A DNA stretch of 64,000 bases, from NCBI RefSeq assembly GCF_022605165.1, contig NC_063071.1, positions 1,922,001-1,986,000 on the forward strand, read 5' to 3'. The stretch is from Purpureocillium takamizusanense (taxonomy: Eukaryota; Ascomycota; Sordariomycetes; Hypocreales; Ophiocordycipitaceae). Shown one piece after another: positions 39,092-64,000 of the stretch. The notes under the pieces were generated by a model. That model saw only the letters and a list, made by a program, of their open reading frames with translations, had not been told where the DNA came from and ran no database searches. A program made the position numbers and the translations under genes. Every line of letters starts with the position of its first letter. Positions within the stretch are counted from its first letter, which is position 1.

Positions 39092-41486
39092 TCACCGTAT
39101 GTGCCAGTTGCCGTCGTCCGAGTCCGAGTCTCCGCCCTCGACCTGGTCCTCCTCGTCCAGGAGCGCCATCTGGACAAAGTGTCGGACCCAAGCCTCCTGC
39201 GCGGCGTCGAGGCCGGCGCCTGCGTTGTTGTTGTTATCGTTGTTGTTGACGATGTTGTCGTTGCCGCCCCCTGCCGGTAGTGGCTGCTGCGGCCCCCGCT
39301 GCCGCCGCTCTTGTTGATGTTGGTTGTGGTGCTGCTGCTGGTGACGACGATGTTGCTGCTGCTCTGCGGCGGCGGCGGCGGCACCGCCCCCACGACCTGC
39401 TGCCGCTGCCGCTGCTGCTACTCGACCGCCTGCGTAGGCGCCCCGGGCGGGTCGGCCTCCGCCTCTGGGAACGGCACCGCCGCCGCGGCCGCCGCGTTGG
39501 GGTAGAGCGCCTCGGCCGCCGCCAGCGGCGCGGGGGTAGTGGTCTGCACCCCTGGCGGCTCCGCGATGGGGGCCGTGGTGGTGGTGCTGATGGTGACCGC
39601 GGCCGCCGCCACGGCCCCTGGCAGCGGCTGGATGCGGAGGCTGTTGGGGCGGCGCGGGCTGGGCCACACGTCGCCCGCCGCGGGGTTGTTGGTTGTTGTC
39701 CATGAGGCGCAGGACGAGCGGCGCTTCCCTGGCGACTGCGATGGCTGGCCGGCCGACCGCCGGGGCATCGTCGCCATCCTCCGTTTCGGTGTCGCTCTCG
39801 TCGGGCTCGTCTTGGAGTAACGCGAGCAAGACGGCATCGCCCATGGCCGCATCATGATGAGGCTGAGGGTCGGCTCCTCCTCCCCCGGCGACGGCGGCGG
39901 CGCCTCGCCCACCGACGAAGCCGATGCCGACATCGTTGCCATCGCCGCCCTCAAGCTCCCACAAGCGCATGTAGCACGAGGTGACCTTGCCGTCGCCCTG
40001 CTGGTTGTAGTGCTTGTAGGGGTTGCCCGGGTCGAGCCACGAGGAGCAGAGATAGCAGAAGTGCGTATCGCAGCGGGAGCAGATCATGTGGTTGCAGCCG
40101 TGCGTCTTCTGGGCGGGCGCGGCGCATGTCGGGCAGGGGCTCGTGTGCAGCTGGAGGTACTCGAGCGAAGCCTTTTCTTCCTCGGTGAGCTCGTCGGTGT
40201 TGCGCTTGGGCACGCAGTACACGAACTCGCCGTGCCAGGTCTGCAGACAGCGGCTGCAGAAGGCGAAGCCGCAATCCTCGCAGACGGAAAGGAGATCGGC
40301 GGCGCTAAACTTGGCGGCGGCTGCCTTTTTCCTATCCCTTTCCCTATCGCGCTCCTCCTCGACTGCCTTTTCGTCGGTTGCGTCCTGGTCGTCATCGCCA
40401 TCGGTCCCGTCGCCGTCAGAATCGGCGGTGTCGCTGAACTGCAGGCCCTCGGGTTTTTTGTGCTTCTTGGAGCGCGCGGCGCCGTTGCACCACTGGCGCG
40501 GGCAGTAGATGGTGTCCTTGTCCGATTCGAGCTCCGTCTTGTACTTGAGCGTCACGTAGCGCTTGACCGCCTCCTCAGTCAGTCCGATCTGGAGCAGCTC
40601 ACTGGGGCTGATGAAGGTTTTACGGCGCGAGGCGGCAGATGGCCCGGCAGCGGTACGTTGCTTGGCGCAATTAGGCGTGAGGCAGCGCACGGCGGACACG
40701 TTCCCCTCGGTGATGGTGCCGTTGTAGAAATCCTGGAGGCACTGCAGGCAAAAGATGTGGCCGCACTCGAGCATCTTGTGACATTTGCTTCCCTTTTTGG
40801 GGTCTGCCGAAGCGTCAGCATCACATGTGAACGCAATAACCTGACTTGAATTTCATCAACTCACCTAAGCAGATTCCGCAGTCAAACGTCCCTTGCTCAA
40901 AGGCGGCACGCTTTGCCTTGATGTCGTAGTCCAGGACGGCGAGCTTATGCTCCGGGGGAACCGCGAGGGTACCCTCGGCGGTGATGGCCCCAAATACGTC
41001 CTCGGCGGCGCGATGGACGTGGTCAATGTAGGAGTAGGCGACCAGATCGCGGCCGGCCTCCTCCCACAGGCGCGGTCCGTCGCTCTCGAGGTCGGCGAGG
41101 GTCTCGCGGGAGAGCCATTGTGGCGCGGTGGAGATGGAGACCTGAGGCGGCTTGTCGGCCGGATAGCCGTCGGGAAGAACGATGCGCAGTGAGACTGGTG
41201 GGAGGTGAGAGATGAGGAGGGAGTCGACGGGCTCCGCGGCTGGCGCAGGCGGACCCGACGATGTCGACGAGGAAGGAAGCGCAGTCGATGATGCGGCCGC
41301 CGCGGTGGCAGGCTGGCTGCCGTCCGGGGCGGGGAACAGAACCGTCACCGGCTCAGCGGGTCGCACAGGGAGCTCGAGCTCAAAGACGAAGCCCGGGGCG
41401 TCGAGCGGACGGCGTATCTCGGGGAAGATGGCCTCGAGGGTCTCGAGCTCCGTGACGCGCGCATCGTCGTCATCTGAGCTGGCCAT
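39092..41486 (-). CDS. RWD-RBR E3 ubiquitin ligase (RNF14/Itt1-like)
   Basis: Two exons, 40865-41486 and 39092-40803, with a 61-nt intron inside RING1, encode 777 aa; the join reads DCGICL|DPKKGSKCHKMLECGHIFC. Residues about 10-165 are an RWD domain (ELETLEAIFPEI..., VSLRIVLPDGYP). RING1 covers about 203-255, the IBR about 285-400 with an acidic/basic insert between its Cys pairs, and RING2 about 431-460 with the catalytic Cys444 in GCNHM. RBR ligases take ubiquitin from an E2 onto this cysteine before passing it to substrate. The domain order matches RNF14 and yeast Itt1, which act in translation and transcription quality control. The C-terminal third (about 540-745) is rich in Gly, Arg, Ala, His, Gln and Asn with RGG-like repeats, followed by a conserved-looking AQEAWVRHFVQMALLDEED end. 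The tail is unusual for the family. Confidence 0.9.
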
Positions 41487-48320: not shown

Positions 48321-49889
48321 ATGATGTGGCCACGGACCTCCATCATCGCGGCAGCGCTCGCCGGTTCTGTTTCCGCTCAACTCCTTTGGAATACCGGGAT
48401 CAGACATCTTGATATCGCAGCAGGAAGTCACGCGACACATCCGGGGCAGCAATCACGACTCAGTGGCACTCGGGCGCGTGATCATACGGCGCCACTATTC
48501 AAGGCCGGGCAGTTCTCCATCGGCACACAAGACAATGCCACCTGTCCGACCTACGGCGAGTCCCAGTGGACGGGGACGGTGGATGTCTCTGATACACATC
48601 GATTGTTCTTTTGGTTCTTCGAGAGCCGCCATGACCCTAGCAACGATCCCGTCATCATTTGGATGAACGGCGGCCCGGGCGGCTCATCGATGTATGGTCT
48701 GTTCAACGACCTTGGGCCATGCATCTTGGATGGAACGAATCTGAGCACGAATCCATGGGCATGGAATAACAACGCTTCCCTCATCTTCCTCGATCAACCT
48801 GCCGGCGTGGGCTTTGGCTCCTTGGCTGAGGCAGCACACATGCCGGCTAGCGATATGGACGGCGCCGCCGACTTTCAGGCCTTTCTCAACATCTTCTTTG
48901 GGAAAATATTTCCCGAAAAGGCACATCTACCTATGCATGTAGCCAGCGAGTCATACGGAGGCCATTACGGGCCGGTATATCTCAAGCACATCCTCGACTC
49001 CCGCGCCTACGATTCCAAGTCGGCCTTTTGGGGCAACATCACCTCCTTGGTACTCGTCAGCGGCATGGTCGACTGGACAGCAGGTGCCGTAGGCACATAT
49101 GAGCTTCTGTGCTCTGACTATCGCGGCCGGGAATTCCTCAACTCGACCGCATGCGATAAAATCCGTTCCGCGACGATAGAGGTTGAACGCCTGGGGCGGT
49201 TGTGTGATCTGAGCCAAGATGGCCATGAATGTTTCGCTCTGCACTCTTTCTTCATGGACCAGATCGACATATATTACCGAGAGCTTATCGAAATGGGGAA
49301 GAAAAGTCCCTTCAACAGTAAGGAAGTCAGTGCACATGGGCTCCCAGATGGTTGCTAACAACGGACAGTTCACCTGCCATGCCCAGACCTGCCTTTCTGC
49401 TACCCCGGCAAAGCCGAATTTACATGGTACCTGAATCAAGACCACATCAAGTCAGCCCTTGGCTTCCCGACGTCGTTTACCTTCGAAGCAGTCAACCTCG
49501 AGCTCCATCAGGCCTACGAGGACAGCCGCACCATGCTCAAGCCGACAACGGGCGAGATCGCCACAGTCCTGGATGCGTACAAGACACCAGGCCTGGGAGA
49601 CATCCGCGTGCTGGTGCTCAACGGCAACGAAGACTACATTGTCAACACGCCGGGCCAGAAGTGGATATACGACAAGTTGCCCTGGAGCGGACAGCCGGAC
49701 TACCGCATCGCGAAGTGGACTGCTCTCCCAGAGGGTTTGGCCGCGACGGGGTTCTGGAAGGGGACAAGGGACGGGCGGCTCGTGTTTGTGGGTGTCGATG
49801 GGGTTGGGCACACCGTTCTGGGCGACGCGCGGGAGGGCAGCCAGCGCATTCTCCAGCGCTGGTTCGAAGGCGGATGGAGGCAGGAGTGA
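48321..49889 (+). CDS. Secreted serine carboxypeptidase, family S10
   Basis: Two exons, 48321-49317 and 49369-49889, with a 51-nt intron (GTAAGG...GACAG), encode 505 aa. The product starts with a signal peptide (about 1-19, ending SVSAQ). S10 hallmarks are all present: the oxyanion motif WMNGGPGGSS (about 114-123), nucleophile Ser211 in ASESYGGHYGP, Asp421 in NGNEDYIVNTPG and His480 in GVGHTVLGD. Several NxS/T sites suggest glycosylation. The family removes C-terminal residues from peptides in the vacuole or outside the cell, and some relatives work as acyltransferases in secondary metabolism. It converges with the first MATE gene and sits at the left edge of the proposed metabolic cluster, but membership is uncertain. 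Confidence 0.92.
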
Positions 49890-51455
49890 TTTGATGCTTA
49901 TCTTGAGCTTCGTCGTCGGGCGACCCGGGTGGCTTGCACAAGGGCTTATACGCGGCGCTATGCCAGGCGTCATGACATTTAGGCTTCTGTTAGCCTGCGC
50001 GGAATGGCCCAGAAGAATCTGTGCAGACAGAAAGCTAGAACTACAGACGGTGAATACACGGGTAAGTACACGCCGCGTACAACTCGCTGTGCTTCTTTTC
50101 CTCGACCTCTCAGACGACGCCACCAAGCAGAGGTAGGCAACGCGCCTTCTCCTTAGATGTACAGACACTTCGTTCGAAGTTCGGCTTCCTGCTCTTTCAA
50201 GTTGAGACGGGCACTGTCCATGAGCGCCAATGTCTCGCCACTCTTCGGAGAATATGGACTTTGCCGATATCGTCGAGGTCACTGACATTGGCGTTTTGCA
50301 CAGCGAACATAGGCATAGTCACGGCCCAGACTCTCTCGCCTCGTGGGTAGAACAGTTGGCGCTCCGGGAACTGGACGCCTCTGTCCAGTGTCATTCAATG
50401 ACATCACTGCTCTCTGGCGTCGCAAGAAAGTCCTGTTGGGGGAGATGGAGGCGGCGGGTTGGATCTCTCAACCATTTCTCAGATTCGAGATGCAATGCAT
50501 CGGGCCATTCCGGCATCACACGAGACAAATGCCCCCCGGGCTAACTGCTGCCTTCTAGGAGCTTTCCTCGCGTAAAGTCCCCATTCCATGCAGTTGGGGC
50601 TGGTTTGGAATCGGGCGGTGTTGCCATTATGCCCTTCATGTCTCTGCCTATGTGATGTCGTTGTCTTACATGGCCCGGGCGTTGGTTTGTTCCCGGCCTC
50701 GACAACGCCCACAACGCAGATCTTTGCAGTTGAGTCCTGGAGCCGATGCACCATGTAGCTGCCTGTCACACCGCTGCTGCATGTTTCCGCAGCGCTTCGA
50801 ACGACCATGTAGTAGTACTAACTAACTTGGTAGCTGTCTAGCAAATGTCTCATGCGGCACCGGCCCGCTGTCGCGGGATGCCGGGATCTAGACACAGCGC
50901 TAAGCTCAAAGCTTACACATGCCGTGTCGCAGACCTAGGAATGATGATGCCCTGATGGATTTCGGTGCCTGTTCTGGCAGACGTTCCGAATTCGGATGTG
51001 AATGAATGCATCTCGGCATAGGCGGCTTGCCATAGAGACAAAGTCACCGAGATCGAGTGCGACATGCAGTCGGTCATGTGAAGGACATGATCGGGCAGAA
51101 GCGCTCCGGGGTGTACCGAGCAACTTCATGTTCTGTCTATAGCTCACTGTCTGTGTGACTATACGGCCCTGGGTGGGCGTCGATCAGTCCCCCCTGAGTA
51201 GGAGCAAGCTGGGCCATTTGCCGCCTCAGAACCATGTAGGCACTACGTGACTTGAAACGAAGAGAAGAGGCAACATCAAATGCACGACTGACGGTCCTGC
51301 GCGAGCTGGTTGTGCAACACCACCGCCGTATCAGGTTGGTCTGAACATTGAAAACTTGCTTTTGCCGGCAGCCATGAAACCGCACGTCTTCACTGTATTA
51401 CTTGTGCGTCCCCCAGCATTTGCCCACTGCCACGCTGCCTGTACGCAACGAGACA
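49890..51455. other. Intergenic between convergent genes
   Basis: This 1.57-kb 3'-to-3' space between the carboxypeptidase and the MATE gene is long for convergent genes. No coding model was found; only short overlapping frames occur. Confidence 0.5.
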
Positions 51456-53164
51456 TCATCCTATGGCCCTTCTAGCAATTGCCTCTTCGACAGCTCGGTG
51501 CCAATTTGTCGTGAGTAGATACGTATACTCAATCATGGATACGCTTGTACAATGTCAGCTTACGCCCGTGGTCGTCCCACATCAAAACCCAACCAAGCTA
51601 TGTTGCACTTACACCACAAGCCCAATGGTAGAACCCGCCCACAAGCCGTCAATCTTCCCGTGAAGCCCAATGCTGAACCAGAGCGACAGGGGCAACGAAA
51701 CGACGTAGTATGCGATGAGGTTAGCCACTCCGCCGATGGATTGTTTGCCAATGCCTCGTAGCAACCCATGAGCCGCCACGCCCAAGCCGTCAAAGAAGGT
51801 CGAGGCTCCCGCAAGCAGCATTGTCGAGGCGACGATCGCGCCCACCTCCTCGTCGTTGGTGAATATGCGTGGTAGCTGGGCTCGAAAGGTGATGTAGACG
51901 ACGCAGTTCACAAGGGTACACAACAAGGACGCCACCACCGCCTGCGAGGATGATTAGCACTCACTCCATGTTCCAGTTGCAAGGACACACTCCCCACGTA
52001 CCACCCGAGCTGCCACTTTTGCATTGTCGACCTGTCCAGCGCCAATCAAGCCAGCCACTCTGGTAGAGGCGGCGATCGACAGGGGAAAGGGAATCTGATA
52101 CGCGAGCGTGGTGAGGGTGATCAGGATGCTCTGCGCCGCGAGATACTCTGTTCCAAACCGGGCCGAGATGATGGTCATGATCTCGAAAGCAAGCCATTCG
52201 GCCTCTACCATGATCATCCCTGGTATGGCGAGTCGGAACACCACTCCCATGTTGGCAAACGCCCTCCAGCTAAGCCCGTCCCAGCATTGGGAGCCGTCGA
52301 CGACTCTGACGTACAGGATCAGGAACAAAGGCAGCAGCGTTCGCGTGATGACAACTGATATAGGGGCGCCGATGAAGCCAAGGTTGAGCTTCCAGATAAG
52401 GAGCCACATCAGCATAGCATTGATAGGTGCACCGGCGAGAAGAACGTAAGTAGTCGCCCTAAACAGTCCTTGGGCCTGAAGAAAACGCTTGCCGACTTCG
52501 AATGCGGCATATCCTGGAATGGCCAGCGTCAGGATCCTCAGGTATAAGCTACACAGGCGAGCTACCTCAGCGTCGGGAAGGAGGTGGACCATGATACTCT
52601 CGGAAAACATCCACAACGTCGCTATTGGGATAGAGCAGCCGAGCAGGAGAAGTATCATGCGCTGGCAGTACAGCCCTACTAGCTGTTTCTCCCCGGATCC
52701 GTACGCCTGGGAACATAGAGTATCCAAGCTTGTAGTGAGGCCTTGAAATGCCGCGAAGCAGGTAATCGCCGCCAGCATGTTGGCCACTGTCGGTAAGAGT
52801 TAGCGGCAACCATAAAACATACCGTGGTGGCAGGCATGGGTATGGGCCCAGACTGACAAGATACGGCTCCCAGCTCTATTTTCCCAAGCCTGCCCGCCGC
52901 TACGACGCTCGATACGTCAATCGAATACTGGAGGAAGAATGTCACGATCAGGGGTGCAGCGTAGCCCACGAGGATCATCGCCTCATGCTGCCACCTGCTA
53001 CAGGGACCGTTTCGCGCTGCTGTCTGCCCGAGTTGCACTTCGGCAGACTGATCCGTAGCGATTGCACCTGCCGCACGGGCGCAGAGTACGGGGGGGTTCA
53101 ACAGAGGCGTTGCCTCTGCATCACCGTTTGAAACGATCATGGCTTCCTCATCATTGGGTTTCAT
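51456..53164 (-). CDS. MATE-family multidrug/toxin exporter
   Basis: Four exons, 52858-53164, 52002-52786, 51613-51941 and 51456-51543, encode 502 aa. The first intron uses donor GTCAGT and its removal gives ELGAVSL|ANMLAAITCFAAFQGLTTSLDTLC, the conserved MATE helix 2 region. Other joins are VAAR V|AVVASLLC and GLVV|VSMIEYTYLL, ending in the typical TNWHRAVEEA tail. Twelve hydrophobic segments are expected between about residues 55 and 480, and a cytosolic N-terminus of about 50 residues precedes them. MATE proteins are proton- or sodium-coupled antiporters that export organic cations and other small molecules. The gene lies next to the PSD-like decarboxylase on the same strand, and a related MATE gene closes the cluster on the right, so export of a cluster product is the likely job. 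Confidence 0.92.
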
Positions 53165-54387
53165 GCTGGTGGACCAATCTGATCCGGTCCCTGTGCTCCG
53201 GCCAAAGTGCTCACACCGATGCTCAGAAGGCAGAGAACTCCTACTTCACATCTTAAGGTCAACCCTCATCATCTTTTGCGCCCAGGATGATGGCGATACT
53301 TACCACGGTGTGTGGTCTGGGATACGCTGACGAGGCGCGCGCGATGCTGGCAAAACTCGGCCGTTTATGGCAGCAACGGGCGTTTCAGGGGCTGGAGGGT
53401 GTACTTCTGCGTTTCTTGAGTCGTCTTCCGGCAACGTGGCACCACATGTTCCCTGGAGGTGGCCATCTAGAGAGTTGGCCGACACAGGGGGCCGAACGTC
53501 CCGCTCCGCCGCTGAGCCAGCCAACGCTCCACGGTCCATGGATACACACGAACACGCTGCCTGTACTGGTTACAGGATCAGCCGCTCGACCAAAAGCTGA
53601 AAAGAGGCGACACGTGATTGTGAATATACCTCTGGCACCTGAACTGTCAATGGCACGGTACCAGCAAAGATGAAAGGCAAGGTCGCACAGCATCAGGTTC
53701 GATGCATCTCCAAAACTTGGGGAATCAGTGAGAGCATCAACAGGAAGGGACTGGAGTATCTGACATCGACCAGACGAACAGCTGGCAATGCATCATCTGC
53801 GGCCATTACCGGTTTCGGGACCCATGTTACTGCTTGCCATTCTATCAATCTGAGACAAAGGTCGAGGCTGTCCGTAGATCCGCGCATAAGCGACAGCAGC
53901 CGCAACATTACTCGTTCTTTCTCAGCCGTGTTTCAGTGAATCAGCTTTCTACCTAGCAGCCTGACATGTGGCACAAAAACAAAACATCTCAGGTCAATGG
54001 AAATTAACTCAGGTGGCTTGCCAGGTGGTGTTTGCCAGACTGCCGCATCAGTCAGTGAACGCACCAGACCCCATCAGGCTCAGGTCCGAGGGCGTATGTA
54101 CGTCTCCCCGCAGTTCCCTGCCGCCGGCAACGCAATGGTGACACATTCTGCATACGAAGCTAATGTTGTCTTGATCACTTTCTTCGAGCTGAGATGCGAG
54201 TCTCTCGGGGGCTTGAAGGATGCACCTTAGTTCCCGGATTGATACATATCGTAAACCCCATCGCTACTTGTGCCACAGCAAGCCTACAAGCTTAACATTA
54301 AACATTACTCTAACAGTGTTCTTAAAAACCGCCAAATATCTCTCACATCTGCACTACTATGGCTTCTTAATACTCATTGTGAAAGCG
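53165..54387. other. Intergenic, promoter of the first MATE gene
   Basis: This 1.2-kb space between same-strand genes contains only short overlapping frames with no family resemblance. Confidence 0.5.
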
Positions 54388-55806
54388 TCAACTCTTATAT
54401 GCGAGAGCCAGCTCGCCACGGATCGGCTGGTTCTTCTTTCCATTACCAGGAATCGCCCCTGGGACCCAGGCAAGTTGCACTCCTTTCCGGAAGAGGAGGC
54501 AGCAGCTTGAACCTCCGTAGTGGAACATGCCAAGCTCCTCACCCTTCGCCACCGGCTTCGGCAAACCTGTGCTAAACTTTGCTGTGATCTCACATGTCGA
54601 TACATCAGCCGCGCCGAGGGCAATAAGGCACATGAGCCCAATAGGTTCGGGCGCCTGGATGAACAAGATGGCTCGGGTAGCGATATGGCTGCAATATACT
54701 TCGTGCTGGTGTATGTTATCTGGACCCTGGCCGTCCAGCCCCGTGGTTTGCGTCTTCGCAAAGTACTTTCCCTGGATCACCTTGGCAAATACCACGTCTC
54801 CTTCTACCGGAGAACTCCAGCGATGATATTGCGTCGAACTCAGGATAGACTGGTGTACTGTGCCGCCGACGAACTGATCCGCAAGTTCGTGGTGGTCCAG
54901 CATCTCGGCTACTGAGTAGTTCTGGCCCTTCATCCAGAATTTGTCGTATTTCTTGACATTCATTGTCAACGCGAGGGGCATGGATTCGCACGCGTGTACC
55001 ACCCATGCAGGGTCGCTAGGATGGGAGACGGGACGAAAGCGGTCGATGTCCCTGAATTTGCGCGTGAAAAAGTCGTCCCATGTCGCATATCCCCAGTAGA
55101 CCGGGTCCCTTTCAGGTTCGCAAGCGAACATGGCCTGGAACGAGGCCCAGGGTACAACACTGATATTGGCGTCTTCCTCAATGACCCTCAACGCCGCGTT
55201 GCAGAGCCAACCCCCGCTCGCGGTTGTGAGAACGTACTGCGACTTGGTGGTTTTTAGGACTCGTTCTCTCCACGTGTCCAGAATGGTTTTGAGCTTCGCG
55301 TTTACATCATCTCGCAGGAAGAACGCGTACCCGCTCGGTGTATTCATTGGCCAGTCCAACAGGATGTTGAACGGCTCTCCAATGATTGCCATATGGTCTT
55401 TGGTCATGTTCCAGGCTGGCGCAACCTCGTTCATGATTACACTGACGAGTGAGAGCAGGTGTTGATAGTCTCGGATGTGTTTGTGCTCTGAGGGGTTCCT
55501 CTTGTAGGGGTCTTTGACCGGTATCTCATCGAGCATGGCCGAAGCCAACATGCGGATTTCGGCTTTACTCTCAATGAGATCCTTGAGTTCCTGGACGATT
55601 GGATCCAGTGAGAAGTTGGCTCTGCCATCGACGTCCTTGATGAAGCCTCGGAGCCAGGGGCCCAACTTGGGGGCCCCATCCGGCGGCAGGCCGCTGACGC
55701 GGAGAGCAGAACGGTATAGTAATGGGCTTAACTGCTGCACCGTCATGGTGGGAAGGGTACTGTAGAGTTTGTGGCCGGGAAGAACGGAAGGTGATTCCGA
55801 CTTCAT
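54388..55806 (-). CDS. PSD-like PLP-independent decarboxylase (PsiD-type)
   Basis: An intronless gene of 472 aa starting at ATG 55806. The first 230 residues match the N-terminal domain found in fungal PSD-like proteins (YQHLLSLVSVIMNEVAPAWNMT..., PMNTPSGYAFFL). The C-terminal part is the phosphatidylserine decarboxylase fold: DDFFTRKFRDIDRFRP (about 244-259), then VVHACES, QYHRWSSPVEG (about 326-336) and the self-processing site HYGGSS (429-434), where cleavage would create the pyruvoyl cofactor. There is no mitochondrial targeting or membrane anchor, which separates it from true PSD. Relatives such as PsiD decarboxylate aromatic amino acids, so an amino-acid decarboxylase is the best guess. 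Compared with bacterial PSD, the triad His appears replaced by Ser331 and the Asp by Glu274 (from memory of the family, not an alignment). It lies between the MATE and DUF3445 genes on the same strand. Confidence 0.88.
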   Translation of the reverse strand: MKSESPSVLPGHKLYSTLPTMTVQQLSPLLYRSALRVSGLPPDGAPKLGPWLRGFIKDVDGRANFSLDPIVQELKDLIESKAEIRMLASAMLDEIPVKDPYKRNPSEHKHIRDYQHLLSLVSVIMNEVAPAWNMTKDHMAIIGEPFNILLDWPMNTPSGYAFFLRDDVNAKLKTILDTWRERVLKTTKSQYVLTTASGGWLCNAALRVIEEDANISVVPWASFQAMFACEPERDPVYWGYATWDDFFTRKFRDIDRFRPVSHPSDPAWVVHACESMPLALTMNVKKYDKFWMKGQNYSVAEMLDHHELADQFVGGTVHQSILSSTQYHRWSSPVEGDVVFAKVIQGKYFAKTQTTGLDGQGPDNIHQHEVYCSHIATRAILFIQAPEPIGLMCLIALGAADVSTCEITAKFSTGLPKPVAKGEELGMFHYGGSSCCLLFRKGVQLAWVPGAIPGNGKKNQPIRGELALAYKS

Positions 55807-56308
55807 TTATGTTTTGGACAGACATTGCTATCCGCAGGGGCATCGTAACACACCTCGTCTTCAGGCCAACTTTGCTTCAGAGTCTCATACAGACAACACC
55901 GAGTTTCACGGCTTAGGTCACCGTTATATTACACAGTCCGATTTTTCCATACCCCGAGTGCATCTAGCGTAAGCCACAAGATCATCATTCCTTCATATGG
56001 CGGCACCTCTTCTTTGCTGGACACAAACAGGCATGTCTCAGCGATTGACGGGGGATCGAGCACATGTTTGCAAGTCTGACCGCGGACGGCCGGACTTATT
56101 GAATGTTAATTTGCCGTAGAACCGTTTGTGACAGGCTGTACGTACGTGAATCAAAAATGTTCATGTTGGCTCATATGTCTCAGTAGTACGTCCGGCCCGG
56201 TGGCCCCGGCAGGACCCCTTCCAACAGTGATTTTTAATACAGCGAGAGACACCGGATGCGAGAACAGGGACCTCTGCGGACAAAGAGGTAGAAAAGAAAG
56301 ACAACGCA
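55807..56308. other. Short intergenic
   Basis: This 0.5-kb space is the promoter of the PSD-like gene and the 3' side of the DUF3445 gene. It carries a CGGAC-type doublet near 56083-56095 (CGGACGGCCGGAC). No gene was seen. Confidence 0.5.
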
Positions 56309-57863
56309 CTAGGATCTGAGAAACCTGCATACCGCCTCGCCCCAGATCTTGCTGCCCTTGTATTTGGCCATGCCAGGGGCGTTTCCCCTGGCCAGGCCTT
56401 CAATCGCGTCCGCGAGCGCCGGGCCCTGCCCTTCGGCTCTTATGTCGGCCAGAGGGTACAGGTACGTCTTGTACATGAGCACGACGGCGCGGGATGAAGG
56501 CAGCCTGAATATGTGCTGGAGCTCCGTCCGGAGATGCGCCTGATGCGGATGGAACGAGCGAGCGCGCAAGTCGTCAGATCAGATCCCATTCGCATATTGG
56601 TAGTGCGGGGGGGAGGGGGGACAACAACGAACCTGGCTTATGTCCACGTCAGTTTGCTGTTGCTGCTGGTGCTGCTGCCGTGACGTTTCGTGATCTGCGT
56701 ATAGGGCGTTCTCGCCATGGCTGAGCTTCAAGCCACCACGCATGGTGATGGCCCACTGCGAATTGTTGACGTGGTAAGCAACGTGTTATACGTAGGTCAA
56801 CACTTTCGAGTTAGGGCCATGGACTTGGGGCCAGTGTCTGGTGACTGGGAAGACGCACATTGTAGCGGCGGGCGAGACGGCCGACTTCGAGCCGATCGAA
56901 CCACCTCGTCATGCTCAGCCCCAGTTTCTCCTCATACCCCGGGACAGGGGCATGGACGGAGCTGAGGGGTTTCCCCAGCAGCGGCGGCAGGTCAAACCCG
57001 CTCGTGAAGCAGACGAGCCATGCCTGCATCGTGTACTCGCCTCCCTTGGCCCCGTCCGGCGGCGGCATGAGAAGCATGAAGTCCTCGTCGACGAGCGTGC
57101 CGAGGCGCCGCATCGTGGCATCCGTCGAGATGGGGGCCCGCTGGGGGAATATCTCGCCCGAGGCGAGGTTCTGAAGCATAGCTTCGGCCCCCCCTTCTGC
57201 ATGGGACCTGAACAGCGTGGGGTAGCGCTTGGGGAGATAGAACCCCGCCAGATACTCGTAGAGTTCCCGCACGGCTGGTTCCGCTCTCGGAGTCGCTCGC
57301 ATGGACGAGACGGGGTGTTCTCCCATGATGTCGCGGCGGAGCTCCAGACGTTTGGGGAACTCTTTGTCAATGGTGATGAGCTCGGACGTGCTGGCGTTGC
57401 TCACCCCTGTTCAAGTCCCGCCAACATGTCAGAATGCAGATCGTCACATTGAGAGAAGAGGTAGGTACGTAGGCGTGAGGGTGGGAATAACGCTACCCAT
57501 GGTCATATAATATCGTGGCTTATACGGTCGAAGCTTCATTGGAGGAGTGACGGTCCAGTCAAAGTCGCGGTGGGGTTCGATGTTCCAGAGCGGCCCGTGA
57601 CGAGCCGCGTCTTTCGGTGTGACGAGGTGCCATTGCAGAGCCCAACGGCGTCTACTACCCCTGCCAACGGTTTATTATCAGCTACTGCTAGCATCTTTCG
57701 AGCATGGCAGCGCCCGTGATGAGGATGCGGAAGTGAAAAGGTCCCCTTACCAGTGCCATAGCCAGCCGAGAAAGGTCCTCGCTGCGAAGGCGAAGAGCAC
57801 GACGCCGATGATATGAGGGATGTGAAGCACGATGAAAGCTTGGATCCCAAGCCCCGTGATCAT
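56309..57863 (-). CDS. DUF3445 protein, heme-dependent oxidative N-demethylase alpha-like
   Basis: Five exons, 57751-57863, 57497-57660, 56859-57406, 56633-56755 and 56309-56539, total 1179 nt and encode 392 aa. Joins read LWHW|GSRRRWALQWHL, YYMTMG|VSNASTSELI, ARRYN|WAITMRGGL and DISQ|AHLRTELQHI. Residues about 5-30 are one membrane helix (FIVLHIPHIIGVVLFAFAA), so the enzyme is probably anchored to a membrane. The remainder matches fungal DUF3445: PLWNIEPHRDFDWTV, RLELRRDIMGEHP, VRELYEYLAGFYLPKRYPTLF, LGTLVDEDFMLLMPP, FTSGFDLPPLLGKPL..HAPVPGYEEKLGLSM, and RTELQHIFRLP. The bacterial relative HODM is a heme-dependent oxidative N-demethylase; the fungal branch is largely uncharacterised. A Gln-rich insert (about 295-310) precedes the last exon. 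It shares a 1-kb bidirectional promoter region with the Fe(II)/2-oxoglutarate oxygenase gene. Confidence 0.88.
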
Positions 57864-58881
57864 GGCTACTCCAAAATAATTTAAGAAAAAAAAAACCCAG
57901 CAATAAGAGCTCTGTAAAGGTTGCGACGTATGCTCGTCATCAGCTCAGGGCCTGATGCTCGTAACTTCGTATTGAAGCATCCACGATGGCTACTTGTTAT
58001 GTCTGGCGGCATGTCCCGCATATTATATGAGGTTTGTCACACCTCATAACACAGACAGAGGTGCTTTGTACGCAATGAGGTCCGTTGGTAGTCGATCAAG
58101 ATGCCTGCTCAAGATCGACTTGAATCACACCGTCACCCATTACTCCTACTACCCACATCAAGACCAAAGCCACAGACCGCTGCTGCGCAGTGTCATAGCT
58201 TGAGACAACAATTACCGGTATGAGTAGGTAGAAGACATGTTTGCAAATGACGCGTCGGAACGCCTCTATGTTGGGTACTGTGGCAGCGTGAGGACCGCTC
58301 TGAATAATGTCGTCTGGGCAACTCCGTTGTTGATCACTCGCTTACTCAGAGCGCGCCCATCATTGATCCTTGGCAATGCACTGCGACTGCCAATGCATCC
58401 AGCTGAGACCTGCGAGCTCGAGGCTGGCAGCTTTGTTGTCACGACTTCCCGCGGTTCGGACGCAGCAATTCGGACGCATCGAGTCCCGTCCTGCATGGTC
58501 AGCTGCCGATTCCGAGACTCCAGGCAGCCACAGGTCGCGACGGCTGAAGCCCAGGCTTTTTTACCACCATGGTCAAACACCGTTGTAGCAGCCTCGAGCA
58601 ACAGACCGACGATTGTCATGCGGGGCGCAGAAGCAAAAGCTCCTGCCCGGTTCAGCAAAACTGCGGTCTTTTTCTGCAGAGTAGTATGCCGGGGCCAGTC
58701 CAGTCCCGGCGCCAGTTCGAGGGTCTCTCTTGTTGTCGGTGTGTTCGAGTTGGTTTATCTATCAGGTGGATAAAACCCTCAACGGCGCGGACATATGTAG
58801 ATGACTGGCTGAGTATCCTCCTCTCCCGAGGTCTTCTCGCTCGCACAACTATTGTATATACAACTGTTTGTTTGAGCAAGA
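57864..58881. promoter_or_regulatory. Bidirectional promoter region, DUF3445 / 2OG oxygenase
   Basis: This 1.0-kb space separates two divergently transcribed cluster genes and should hold both promoters. Inside it are two perfect copies of TTCGGACGCA, at 58455-58464 and 58469-58478, 14 bp apart start to start. Direct CGG repeats are a common target form for fungal Zn2Cys6 factors. No coding model is supported. Confidence 0.6.
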
Positions 58882-60137
58882 ATGCTGCGTCATATTCGCC
58901 GCTTGCCTCCCTCCAGGGGGAAGAAGACACCCTGGACAAGGTCCATCTCAAGCGCGGCACCCGCCGCAGTCGGCCCTGCTGCCTACGGGAGATCACAGCC
59001 GCAGCCTGTGGCTTCCATTGCCCCTGGCGCACGATGGACAACCACACACAGCGTGCCCCTTAGTCGCGATACCGTGCTCGACCTGCTCTATGGCAGGGCG
59101 CCGCTCATCAGAGAGCCCGGGTTCCTCACTCCGGCGGAGTGCTCCAGGTATGAACAGCATCTAAGCCCACTCGTGACTCCCTACGTCCACAACACCGGGC
59201 CAACCTTGCGGAAGGTGGGCATCGCACAGGTAAGCATTGCGCTCGACGAAAGCCTGCCGAGCGGGACCACTTGACATTGATGAGCGAGAAAAGGCTGAGT
59301 GAGATTGGCACAGTTTGAGTATCAGGCGCAGTCGCAAGAGGACCTGAGAACGCGCAGCAATGGTACGCGATCTTGAGCCCACACACATGTTCTCTCTATC
59401 TCACGAGCGTGTCCTCGTTGACATATATATATTCGCAGAGCAGGATCGGTACTTTGAGGATGCCAAGACGTGGGAGGACTTTCACAACAACCTGTCTGCC
59501 GAAAAGGGACTCGACGCATGGTTTCGAGTCTTCAATCGCATTTCTGGCTTCTTCCCGGACTGGGACGTCCAGGTCGCCTCCGAGGGGCCGGGGCGCAAGT
59601 ACTTCTCCGGCATCTTCCGGGCGCTCAACGACTCGACGCATCTCCATTGCGACTTTTCACCGTACGACAGCCTTACCGAGGACTGGATCATCAACACAGT
59701 CGAGCATCAAATCGTGTTCAACCTCTATCTCGCTCCGGTGAAAGACGGCCGGACAGTACGTTTTTTGAACCGGTTCCCCTTCCAACCCTTTTTTTTTTTT
59801 GGTTGGTATCCGAGATTTTGAGAGTCTGACGAGTCTTTACCTGTAGATTGTCTACGATGTCCAGTGGACGCAGGACGCGCTCAAGCTACGCGACCCAAGC
59901 AGCTACGGATATCACCGTGACCTGGTAGCCGGGGCGCGCAAGGTCTACTGCGAGCCGACCGTCGGGGCGCTCTGCATGTTCAACTCGCGCAACATGCACG
60001 AGGTGGAGGCCGTGACGCCAGAGGAGATGCCGTCGCTGGGGCTCAAGTTTAGGCCGCGGTTGTGTCTGAGCAGCTTCATGGGCCTGTTGCCGAGCTCAAA
60101 AACCGGCGGCAAGCCACGGTTGATATTTTGGTCGTGA
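58882..60137 (+). CDS. Fe(II)/2-oxoglutarate-dependent oxygenase
   Basis: Four exons, 58882-59229, 59314-59362, 59439-59755 and 59847-60137, encode 334 aa. Joins read GIAQ|FEYQAQSQEDLRTRSN|EQDRYFEDAKTWEDF and DGRT|IVYDVQWTQ. The double-stranded beta-helix iron site is intact: His202 and Asp204 in STHLHCDFSPYD, His289 in NSRNMHEVEAV, and a 2-oxoglutarate-binding Arg at 307 or 309 in FRPRLCLSSFMG. Because the acidic ligand is present, hydroxylation or a related oxidation is expected rather than halogenation. The overall pattern (KYFSGIF, LHCDF, FNLYLAP, VYDVQW, GYHRDLVAG) resembles uncharacterised fungal 2OG enzymes distantly like WelO5-type proteins. The first 60 residues are Arg/Pro/Ser-rich and may not be real; the true start could lie in another upstream exon. 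Intron 3 contains a 13-T run. Confidence 0.87.
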
Positions 60138-61083
60138 ATAGCAAGCCGTATGTTAGTTGTGTAGGCAGCTGGTATACTCGACCTCTTGCGAAATGGCAAG
60201 TAGTCCTAGAGACATAGTGGAACAAACAAACATTGTATTCGTCAAGTCTAACTTGAAGGAGTAATCCCCATAATTGAAAAGGCCGCAAGCTCATTACTAG
60301 TTGCCTTTGTGTACTTTGTAGAGGGGGCGTTGCAGAGCGGAGTATGTGGCAACCATCATTGATGTGTAGTTCAATGAGTGTTTCTCCAGTCCCTGGACGG
60401 CGTGTGCTGTTCATGCAATCTTCAGCTGAGGCGCTTTTGTTGGAACGGTGTCTGAGTTCCGCTTTCTTTTTGCTGCATGCAATGTCGTCTTTTGGCTGCC
60501 GCCGTGTTTCGGCTGCTGTCGTCTTGCGGGTGATGTATCCCGGCATATCCGGGAGGCGGTGTAAGTCGTCACCGCTGCATCGCCCGCCTGCGAGACACCT
60601 GTCCGCTGGATGATCCGTGCAGATACTTGGCGTATTTTGGGGTCTGAAATCGGAGTTCAGCCGTCCTGATGTGCGCCCCTCCTTGGCACGATGACATTGA
60701 CAAGGGTGATGATACCAAAAGGAACCGAGAACATGACGCACAGTATAGTAAAGATCTTCCCTGCTAGTTGTGCTTGGGAGAGCTTCAAGCAAGGGTTTGA
60801 GGGTACTTGATCGCTAGTTGCACATCAGTTTCAGCCAGACAGCTATCCAGCTCAACAACATGAAGTGGCTCGTGGCATGACCAATCTCGCGGAGAAGTAA
60901 ACCCTAAAACTGTAAACACATTACTTGAGTATTCGACACGTTCTCGTTCATCCAGGAGCAGATTACCTTTGATCCTACGCCCCCTCTTCTTATATCTCTT
61001 CTTATTGATCGACGGACGCTTAAAAGCCAACCACATCCGCGTTGATAGGGGGCCATCGTCCAAGCCCTACACACATTCATCCC
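60138..61083. promoter_or_regulatory. Promoter region of the threonine-aldolase-type gene
   Basis: This 0.95-kb space lies between two + strand cluster genes. The last 100 bases are C/T-rich followed by AAGCC/CACAT leader sequence, usual for fungal promoters. A CGGACGC copy lies at 61013-61019, the same heptamer found twice in the divergent promoter to the left. A minus-strand frame at 60657-60760 encodes one strongly hydrophobic stretch (ILCVMFSVPFGIITLVNVIV) behind a possible acceptor site, but no first exon could be found. Confidence 0.5.
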
Positions 61084-62316
61084 ATGGATTCACAAACTGT
61101 CGTCTTGGAGAAGCCTTGGAGTTTCGAGCCTCCGCCGGCGTCTGTCGATATCGAACCCAAACCTCCCCAATGTAGCTTTCAAGTCGTCGAGTCCGAGAAG
61201 CACAGACAACTCGAGCCAAATTTGGCGTGGTCGCACAGCCATGAGGCCTCCAACGACTTCCGGTCGGACATCTTCACGAAGCCGACACTGCCCATGCTGG
61301 AGGCCATCATCAATACCACCCTCGGCGACAACGTAATGGAAGAGGACACGACCACGAACCGCTTCCAAGAATACGTGGCCGACCTTGTGGGCCACGACGC
61401 CTCCCTGCTGGTCATGTCGGGGACCATGGGCAACCAGGTAGCCCTCCGGACGGCCCTGACCACTCCGCCTCACTCGATCCTCGCCGACCACAGAGGCCAC
61501 ATCGTCACCTTTGAGAGCGGAGGCGCGTCGGCCCTGTGCGGCGCCTTGTTCAAAACGGTCGTTCCGTCCAACGGCCATCACCTCACGCTCGACGATGTAA
61601 AGAGCCATTGCACCCTGACGGACACCGTCTACGACTGCCCGACCAGGATCATCAGCCTAGAGAACACGCTATGGGGTACCGTCATGCCCCTCTCCGACAT
61701 GCGCGCCATCTCACAGTGGGCGCGGTCGCAGACTCCCCCGATACACATGCATCTAGACGGAGCCCGCCTCTGGGAAGCCGTCGCCACCGGGGCCTTTACC
61801 CTTCGGGAGGCTGGGGAGTGCTTCGACAGCATGCAGTTATGCCTATCAAAAGGCCTCGGGGCGCCCATTGGCAGTGTTCTGACGGGGACCTCGGCCTTCA
61901 TCAAGCGAGCGAAATGGAGCCGCCATTTCCTCGGCGGCGACATTCGTGCCGCCGGTCTCATCTCGGCGCCGGCGAGGGTAGGCATCGACAACGTCTTCTT
62001 GGGTGGTAAGCTGGGGGCGGCACAGGACATGGCGAAGCGTGCCTCGGCCTTGTGGGTGGAACTCGGCGGGAAGCTGCAAGCGCCTACGGAGACGAACCAG
62101 ATATGGCTTGACCTCAATGCCTCGGGCCTGAAACCCAACGACTTTTACCCCGTGGCTGCGCAGTTCGATCTGAAAGTCATGGACCTGATTCCGGGGCGTA
62201 TTGTCCTCCACTACCAGATCACCGAGCAGGCATTCGCCCGGCTCTGTAGTTTTTTCAAGGCTCTCCTCCCTAGAGAACAGACTCCCGAGACTGTCGAAAA
62301 TAAACTAGAGAATTAG
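61084..62316 (+). CDS. Threonine aldolase-family PLP enzyme
   Basis: An intronless gene of 410 aa starting at ATG 61084 in the context CATCCCATGG. Fold-type I PLP aldolase features are clear: DFRSDIFTKPTLPMLEAI (about 58-75), MEEDTTTNRFQEYVADLVGHD, the SGTMGNQVALR cofactor loop, SLENTLWGTVMPL (191-203), Asp225 in HMHLDGARLWEA and the PLP lysine K256 in LCLSKGLGAPIGS. Family members cleave L-threonine or L-allo-threonine to glycine and acetaldehyde, and in biosynthetic clusters run in reverse, adding glycine to an aldehyde to make beta-hydroxy-alpha-amino acids. The N-terminal 50 residues are an extension compared with housekeeping aldolases. It converges closely with the second MATE gene, with only 190 bp between stop codons. 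Confidence 0.92.
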   Translation: MDSQTVVLEKPWSFEPPPASVDIEPKPPQCSFQVVESEKHRQLEPNLAWSHSHEASNDFRSDIFTKPTLPMLEAIINTTLGDNVMEEDTTTNRFQEYVADLVGHDASLLVMSGTMGNQVALRTALTTPPHSILADHRGHIVTFESGGASALCGALFKTVVPSNGHHLTLDDVKSHCTLTDTVYDCPTRIISLENTLWGTVMPLSDMRAISQWARSQTPPIHMHLDGARLWEAVATGAFTLREAGECFDSMQLCLSKGLGAPIGSVLTGTSAFIKRAKWSRHFLGGDIRAAGLISAPARVGIDNVFLGGKLGAAQDMAKRASALWVELGGKLQAPTETNQIWLDLNASGLKPNDFYPVAAQFDLKVMDLIPGRIVLHYQITEQAFARLCSFFKALLPREQTPETVENKLEN

Positions 62317-62506
62317 CATACCTAGAGTCTATTGTTAATAGCTGCGTGGGCGGTGGTCGAATAAACGAGCTGGATTTTGCATCACCACCTGCCGGACGCT
62401 GCATGTGGTCTATGCCAACCACAGGACGCGTTTACTCGCCGCTGTGACAATCTCCATGGGTATGGCTTTCCTTTCGTCTTGTTTACAAACCAACCGGTCT
62501 GCTGCC
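62317..62506. terminator. Shared 3' space of convergent genes
   Basis: This 190-bp space is left between the aldolase stop and the MATE stop. AATAAACG at about 62360 is a plausible + strand polyadenylation element. The two transcripts probably overlap at their 3' ends. Confidence 0.4.
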
Positions 62507-63918
62507 TCAATCCCGCTCGTTCCTGCGTTCAGCATCTGCAACCGCATCGTTCCAGTCCCAGCGATACAGCCACCAGAACTCGACCACACTTACACTACAA
62601 GCTCTGTTAGCCGAAGCGCTCCGCAGCATGGCAGCCCGTTCGCAACCCTGACTTACATGCCCAAGCCAACTGTGATGCCAGTCCAGAGCCCGTAGATCTG
62701 CCAGTGGAGAAGAAAGGCGGTGCTGAAGGAGATGGGGATCGCAATCAGATTGTACGCGACCAGGTTGAGGTAGCCGCCAAATTCCTGGTAACCGATGCCT
62801 CTCATCAGGCCGTGAGAGATGGCCGAGATGGCGTCGAAGCACTGCATGACCATGACGATAGGCAGCGCTTTGGTGATGATGCCGACGACTTCCGCGTCAT
62901 CGGTGAACAGGTACGGAAGGTGGTACCGCAGCGCAGCCGTGAGGACGGTGCTCAACGCGGTGAAAATGAGCCCAAGCACAACAGCCTGCACCATGAAAAT
63001 CAGCAGCCGCTCTCCATATGTCGCTCATGGCGGAAGAAGGGGGGGGGGATCGAATAGGGCGATGACTGACCACCACTGCCGCCATCGTCGCCGCGTCAGT
63101 TGCCTTGGCGCCAATAAAATTGGCAACACGGATGGAAGCAGCGATCGATAATGCGAGGGGCACTGTCCAGACGATTTGTGTCAGGGTCACCAAAGCACTT
63201 TGGGCGGCGAGCTGCGCCGCGCCAAACTGGGCGCACGCGATGGTGAGGATTTCATCGGCAGCGAATTCAGCCACGTGCATGACCATGCCTGGTATTGCCA
63301 ACCGCATCATTGGCTCTGTGACGACTGTGAGTCTCTTCTCTGCCTCAAGGCGCCCCCCAAAGGACAGGAAAGACTTACTCCAATTCGAAAGAGCCTTTTT
63401 CGAGAAGCCTCCCCAGCACTGATACCCGTCTATCAGCCACAGGTAGAGGAACAGCAGCACGGCCATCAGATTCTCCGTAACAACGATGGCGACTGGTCCC
63501 CCGATGAAGCCCCAGCCGAGATGCCAGGTCAAGGCCCACATGATGCAGGCATTCAACGGCGCGATAAGCAGGAGGACGTAGGTCGCGGCGTTGAAGATGC
63601 CCTGGGCCTGGGCGTACCGCTTCCCGCACTCGAAGAGAACAAAGGCCGGGACGCGAAGGATCATGATCTTCAGGTAGAGGCCGGTCAAGTCTGCCAACTC
63701 ACGCTCCGGGAGGATAAGCGCAAGCATGGCGTCGGCCTTCCACCACAGCGCCATGAGCGGCGCAGTGCAGAGCAGGATGAAGTAGACCATGCGCTGCGTG
63801 TGGATGCCAACCAAGTACTTGTTGCCTGACCCGTAGGCTTGGCCTGCCAGCGTGTCAAGGCTGTTCGCCAGTCCCTGGATGATGGTGTTGCCTATCATGT
63901 TGGTTGTGATGCTTGCCA
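62507..63918 (-). CDS. Second MATE-family exporter (5' exon beyond window)
   Basis: Four exons are visible, 63379-63918, 63071-63315, 62657-62985 and 62507-62603, coding the last 403 residues or so. The missing N-terminal exon must lie past position 64000, because the sequence upstream of the acceptor at 63919-63920 has no matching helix-1 coding and no good donor. Joins read SNW|KPMMRLAIPGM, MAAVV|AVVLGLIFTAL and GLGI|ACSVSVVEFWW. The protein starts in the same place as exon 2 of the first MATE gene (ASITTNMIGNTIIQGLANSLDTLAGQAYGSG) and shares three intron positions and phases with it, plus one extra intron (63316-63378). A role in product export or self-protection is inferred from its position. 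Confidence 0.88.
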
Positions 63919-64000
63919 CTGATGCTTGTTGTCAGCGCACACGACGGCACCGTCTGGGGGCCTCCTCCTCCGGGCTGCGAGCGCCGGATGAGATATAGAT

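Follow-up and report, generated by a model that had tools for sequence, protein, structure and literature searches.

A possible core-less metabolic gene cluster of amino-acid enzymes and MATE transporters in Purpureocillium takamizusanense

A candidate cluster between two MATE genes

We analyzed a 64,000-base stretch of the Purpureocillium takamizusanense genome (C4:1922001-1986000 in an assembly of 35.57 Mb and 14 contigs; hereafter the window, whose own numbering is used unless another contig is named). A set of genes at ~51.6-64.3 kb, from a first MATE transporter gene (MATE1) through a second (MATE2), is tentatively read as a metabolic cluster that may make and export a small amine or amino alcohol without a nonribosomal peptide synthetase (NRPS) or polyketide synthase (PKS) core. 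An amino-acid-derived amine is a chemically plausible product, because the decarboxylase of the set is PsiD-like and carries a GGSS motif, and because the family of its oxygenase is predicted to have an amino-acid-hydroxylase-like fold. We judge two readings about equally likely: a genus-level pathway yielding a small amine that is hydroxylated or shortened, and accessory genes that are only loosely grouped.

Gene models were built from splice signals and homology, with MATE2 modelled at its 5′ end only. The gene order is an S10 peptidase (+), MATE1 (−), a PsiD-like decarboxylase (PSD; −), a heme oxidative N-demethylase (HODM)-like protein (−), an Fe(II)/2-oxoglutarate (2OG) oxygenase (+), a threonine-aldolase-type enzyme (TA; +), and MATE2 (−). 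The gaps inside the set, from MATE1 to MATE2, are ~1.2, 0.6, 1.0, 0.9, and 0.3 kb. An earlier note, made from the letters of the window, had named all seven genes by class, and every class was recovered, six genes by Pfam and the 2OG enzyme by its homologues together with the predicted fold of one of them. Its description of a locus without an NRPS or PKS core was also borne out: no condensation or ketosynthase domain was found near the locus, and the nearest on C4, taken as best-scoring candidates, lie ~1.08 Mb (condensation) and ~0.79 Mb (ketosynthase) away from the window.

Enzymes and transporters of the set

PSD (54388-55746, −) is a single-exon gene for a pyruvoyl-type decarboxylase of 452 amino acids (aa) with the Pfam domains PSDC (PF12588) and PS_Dcarbxylase (PF02666). 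The consulted part of PMC6121855 names GGSS as a mark of PsiD-like decarboxylases and tryptophan as the substrate of PsiD; the motif is kept in the window protein as HYGGSSC near its end. The nearest PDB entries were 9jer, a PsiD-like protein (228 bits), followed by PsiD itself (8zia and 8x4q, ~150 bits), all of which share both domains and the GGSS motif with PSD. However, the alignment to PsiD does not begin until residue 121 of PSD (residues 111-402 of the 402 in the 8x4q chain). Furthermore, PSD, unlike PsiD, belongs to a Hypocreales group, and the kinase, methyltransferase, and P450 given for the psi cluster in the same part of PMC6121855 are not among the genes found at the locus. The best 120 of 514 PSD homologues were listed, and a tree of 44 of these rows paired PSD with an 85% identical jgi/ena protein inside the Hypocreales group. 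A paralogue on C8 is closer to an Aspergillus fumigatus-type protein, with summed tblastn bits of 573-586 compared to 317 for PSD. No PSD relatives were found in viral_contigs.

The 2OG gene (58882-59229, 59314-59362, 59439-59755, and 59847-60137, +) has four exons encoding 334 aa and is assigned to the WelO5/SadA type. Scans of one exon and of the spliced model gave no Pfam match, and a PF22814 (WelO5) search of the genome returned 0 matches, missing the window gene itself, and was thus uninformative. All 71 homologues found were listed, and many carry PF22814. The predicted structure of one homologue, P0121, gave WelO5 as its best fold match and SadA, an N-substituted L-amino acid dioxygenase, as the next, so that the likeness of the window enzyme to SadA comes through the modelled fold of this homologue. 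The HxD...H motif is kept in the window protein (as HCD), and D195 is invariant across 50 aligned of the 71 homologues. WelO5 is a halogenase that carries HxG where hydroxylases carry HxD, and the PDB title 'WelO5 G166D variant' is in keeping with this. Although P0121 shares the WelO5 fold, identity to the WelO5 rows is 12-17%. Since HxD stands in place of HxG, halogenation is unlikely, and the halogenase reading was rejected. No bacterial relative was confirmed among 341 pattern matches in genome_contigs, and the 2OG alignment had no match in viral_contigs. Two homologues bear odd names: P0153 of Rutstroemia is called 'l-allo-threonine aldolase protein' in the public record, and P0122 'restless-like transposase', the latter plainly an annotation error. 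Perhaps fused gene models or wrong name transfer account for both.

A further WelO5-like relative was observed on C2 (3577237-3577863), with 31% identity to P0121 and a WelO5 domain match of 25.4 bits, just below the cut-off of 27. It lies ~5 kb from a giant NRPS (an open frame of 11306 aa), which may be a leucinostatin synthetase candidate. In the lcs cluster of P. lilacinum, as given in the part of PMC4946873 consulted, lcsS, flanked by lcsE and lcsT and close to the NRPS gene lcsA, encodes a 243-aa hypothetical protein. The C2 gene may be the counterpart of lcsS and may encode an amino-acid hydroxylase.

TA (61084-62316, +) is a single-exon gene for a pyridoxal phosphate (PLP) enzyme of 410 aa with the Pfam domain Beta_elim_lyase (PF01212), and its PDB relatives are L-allo-threonine aldolases. 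K256, which we take to be the PLP lysine, is nearly invariant in the alignment. The best 120 of 1685 homologues were listed. The tree comprised 41 rows and left out P0265, a duplicate of the C3 gene; this P. takamizusanense protein at NCBI is 100% identical to its match on C3. TA groups first with an ena protein of 86% identity and then with the C3 paralogue from this genome (97/84), and it is probably an accessory copy. On the GntG model NF041359, TA scored 213.7 bits against a curated cut-off of 230, while another TA, on C2, scored 275.4; GntG membership was therefore rejected, and the label is not specific. Hydroxylation followed by an aldolase step is known from carnitine biosynthesis, and the guanitoxin pathway includes a hydroxylase and a MATE exporter. 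The window locus resembles the latter in that an oxygenase and a MATE pump accompany an aldolase from the same broad family, but the genes found include no counterpart of the guanitoxin cyclase, transaminase, or methyltransferase. GntG performs the retro-aldol step of guanitoxin biosynthesis, according to the consulted part of PMC10367076.

The C3 paralogue lies ~54 kb from the end of that contig (C3:3408001-3423000), between a major facilitator superfamily (MFS) carrier and a Cys/Met-type PLP gene. Farther along are an adenylation protein with an NAD_binding_4 (reductase) domain and an ATP-binding cassette transporter, making this locus a candidate NRPS-like cluster.

The HODM-like heme protein (56309-57863, −), formerly classed as DUF3445, has five exons in the model and 392 aa. 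Its match to HODM_asu-like (PF11927) scored 263.4 bits against a cut-off of 25, and it matched HODM itself (PDB 5lte) at an E value of 1.7e-8. PF11927 covers the domain in the window protein as it does in HODM; in contrast to 5lte, the window protein is fungal and has a predicted N-terminal hydrophobic stretch. We know of no activity for fungal HODM-like members; a DUF3445 gene listed in an expression table of PMC6320622 has no bearing on the locus. Ten exon matches resolved into six HODM-like loci in the genome, including the window gene. At C14:50001-60000, two such genes flank a copper amine oxidase, accompanied by a Fungal_trans_2 regulator and an amino-acid permease; one of these HODM matches includes a stop, perhaps an intron. 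The C14 locus is likely an amine-use cluster, which hints at the role of fungal HODM-like proteins. A HODM gene on C2 adjoins an aspartyl protease.

MATE1 (51609-51941, 52002-52786, and 52858-53164, −; three exons, 474 aa) and MATE2 (~62653-64336, −, of which 62653..64000 is inside the window) were both identified by the Pfam domain MatE. As the earlier note had supposed, there is more to read past position 64000, where the contig continues and the start codon of MATE2 lies at 64336. The first intron joint of MATE2 codes for the same residues as that of MATE1 (LGAVS/LA). MATE1 is nearer to a paralogue at C7:1396k (57% identity, the closest among those found) than to MATE2 (~41%), and a recent tandem duplication was therefore rejected. 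Eleven MatE matches in the genome grouped into four genes, two of which are at the locus. In a gene-slot simulation, chosen post hoc once the result was known, two of four MATE genes fell at most five gene steps apart in 0.5% of draws.

Proposed pathway

In the proposed pathway, the 2OG enzyme of WelO5/SadA fold would hydroxylate a substrate of the amino-acid type, with the beta carbon as the probable site, and TA would then cleave, or in the reverse direction form, the beta-hydroxy amino acid. PSD could decarboxylate an amino acid or the product of the TA step, giving an amine or amino alcohol. An N-alkyl or amine group may be oxidized by the HODM-like protein, and export of the resulting organic cation would fall to one or both MATE pumps. 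Substrates, step order, joint action, and export are all inferred here. It is quite unlikely that the locus represents a core-less fungal pathway to exported amino alcohols or aromatic amines of a new class, in which a WelO5/SadA-type hydroxylase, TA, and PSD would be combined with heme N-oxidation and dedicated MATE pumps. Each part comes from a known family, and the locus, if it is a cluster at all, would be a metabolic one lacking an assembly-line core. No description of this combination was found among the titles and abstract openings listed from one open-access library, where most matches were off-topic.

If the pathway exists, fungi would make export-ready amines by single-step enzymes alone, and core-based mining may overlook such loci. 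It would also give a context to two poorly understood fungal families, the HODM-like heme proteins and the WelO5-like 2OG enzymes. If it does not, the locus serves as a useful caution that even a striking run of enzyme names may not amount to a pathway.

Tests of linkage among the genes

Several results weigh against the genes forming a unit. Contigs shared by homologues were compared for PSD (120/514 matches), 2OG (71/71), and TA (120/1685), with homologues of HODM and MATE outside this comparison. Only the longest contig per protein cluster is shown, so that misses weigh little. Among the listed matches, 2OG and TA shared 0 contigs, and 2OG and PSD shared one, a P. lavendulum contig of 2,545,696 bases. 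At 2.5 Mb, this contig does not show adjacency of the two genes. Moreover, the P. lavendulum PSD is 58% identical to the window PSD and falls outside its clade in the 44-row tree, and P. lavendulum was thus rejected as proof of linkage. Besides the window's own contig, PSD and TA shared one contig of 2801 bases, which looks spurious because the records come from differing sources. The only named species common to the listed PSD and 2OG rows were P. lavendulum, Biscogniauxia mediterranea, and Neonectria ditissima, and in the latter two the genes are on different contigs. No row named P. lilacinum appeared among the 120 listed PSD or 120 listed TA rows, nor did a P. lavendulum TA among the 120 listed of 1685. 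The PSD and 2OG gene trees also differ. The conserved co-location that the earlier note envisaged was accordingly not supported by this indirect comparison.

Promoter words gave a similar picture. The space between the divergent HODM-like and 2OG genes (57864..58881, 1018 bases by model geometry) is a possible shared promoter. Six promoter regions were compared with 60 Markov shuffles over about a dozen word classes. No 8-base word was shared by five of the six regions, and no 9-base word by four. Two 8-base words occurred in four regions (reached by 11/60 shuffles) and two 7-base words in five (19/60), whereas 7-base words in four regions numbered 30 compared to a mean of 14.6 (1/60). Gapped 3+3 words numbered 70 in all six regions compared to 44.8 (2/60) and 630 in five regions compared to 559.6 (7/60). 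Because about a dozen classes were tested, the excess, seen in two looser classes, is at most weak, and no shared promoter motif was identified among these words. Furthermore, no regulator was seen, and the six open frames scanned between 44 and 48.3 kb gave no Pfam match; the closest paralogue of MATE1 adjoins an actin-domain gene, the only neighbor scanned there.

Weighing of the alternatives

These results suit a loose neighborhood of independent accessory genes with no common pathway, in which an expanded Hypocreales PSD, an extra TA, a patchy 2OG gene, and HODM and MATE genes happen to adjoin. We regard this as a serious possibility, short of probable. It accords with the differing named species and trees of PSD and 2OG, the lack of usable conserved co-location, the weak promoter signal, and a layout of mixed strands with gaps of ~0.3-1.2 kb. 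Relatives of TA, HODM, and 2OG occupy other metabolic-looking loci of the genome, and such paralogue contexts show accessory-looking loci, not joint action by the window genes. However, chance adjacency sits less easily with the presence, inside 13 kb, of two of the four MATE genes of the genome together with single copies from four families of small-molecule enzymes. The claim of an amine-building cluster is upheld for the enzyme identities, and its chemistry is plausible, but a conserved unit is unsupported.

Alternatively, the locus could serve catabolism or detoxification, with the HODM-like protein, TA, and the decarboxylase breaking down or modifying an N-methylated or hydroxylated amino compound derived from an insect host or from soil, and with cations expelled by the MATE pumps. 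The amine oxidase, regulator, and permease beside the two HODM genes on C14 fit such a role, and threonine aldolases are described as degradative in the consulted part of PMC4401734. This explanation is unlikely: neither an amine oxidase nor an importer is among the genes found in the set, the 2OG family has the WelO5/SadA fold, and decarboxylation yields amines and does not remove them. We think it very improbable that 2OG and TA, with or without MATE2, make up a hydroxylation/retro-aldol pair as in carnitine or guanitoxin biosynthesis, leaving PSD, HODM, and MATE1 unrelated. The two genes are adjacent on one strand, ~0.95 kb apart, the modelled homologue fold is next to that of SadA, GntG offers a retro-aldol precedent (PMC10367076, in the part consulted), and the aldolase name of P0153 may reflect a gene model fused with its neighbor. 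Yet that name may be an annotation error like that of P0122, and no contig was shared when all 71 2OG homologues were set against the 120 listed of 1685 TA matches.

Composition and neighboring genes

The GC content of the region is 0.559, compared to 0.615 and 0.612 in its flanks, and it returns to 0.61 past 64,000. The published genome of this entomopathogen has a GC content of 57.76%, with 35.6 Mb in 14 scaffolds and an N50 of 3.09 Mb (PMC9302088). Since the region is near this mean, its low GC alone is no sign of foreign DNA, and a foreign origin is unsupported. The same paper counts 36 antiSMASH clusters, and the part of PMC11576294 consulted gives a figure of 39.

The S10 gene (48321-49317 and 49369-49889, +; Pfam Peptidase_S10) encodes a serine carboxypeptidase of the secreted type with 505 aa. 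The earlier note had counted it within the set; the gene is present, but it ends 1.7 kb from MATE1, and position was the sole tie noticed. It is probably a mere neighbor. To the right of MATE2, open frames judged by eye resemble a PAP2 phosphatase, a seven-transmembrane protein, a chromate transporter, an NAD kinase, and an MFS carrier, and they look like ordinary genes. Outside the set, a frame at 39095-40852 (−) was identified by Pfam as an IBR-type (RBR-like) ubiquitin ligase.

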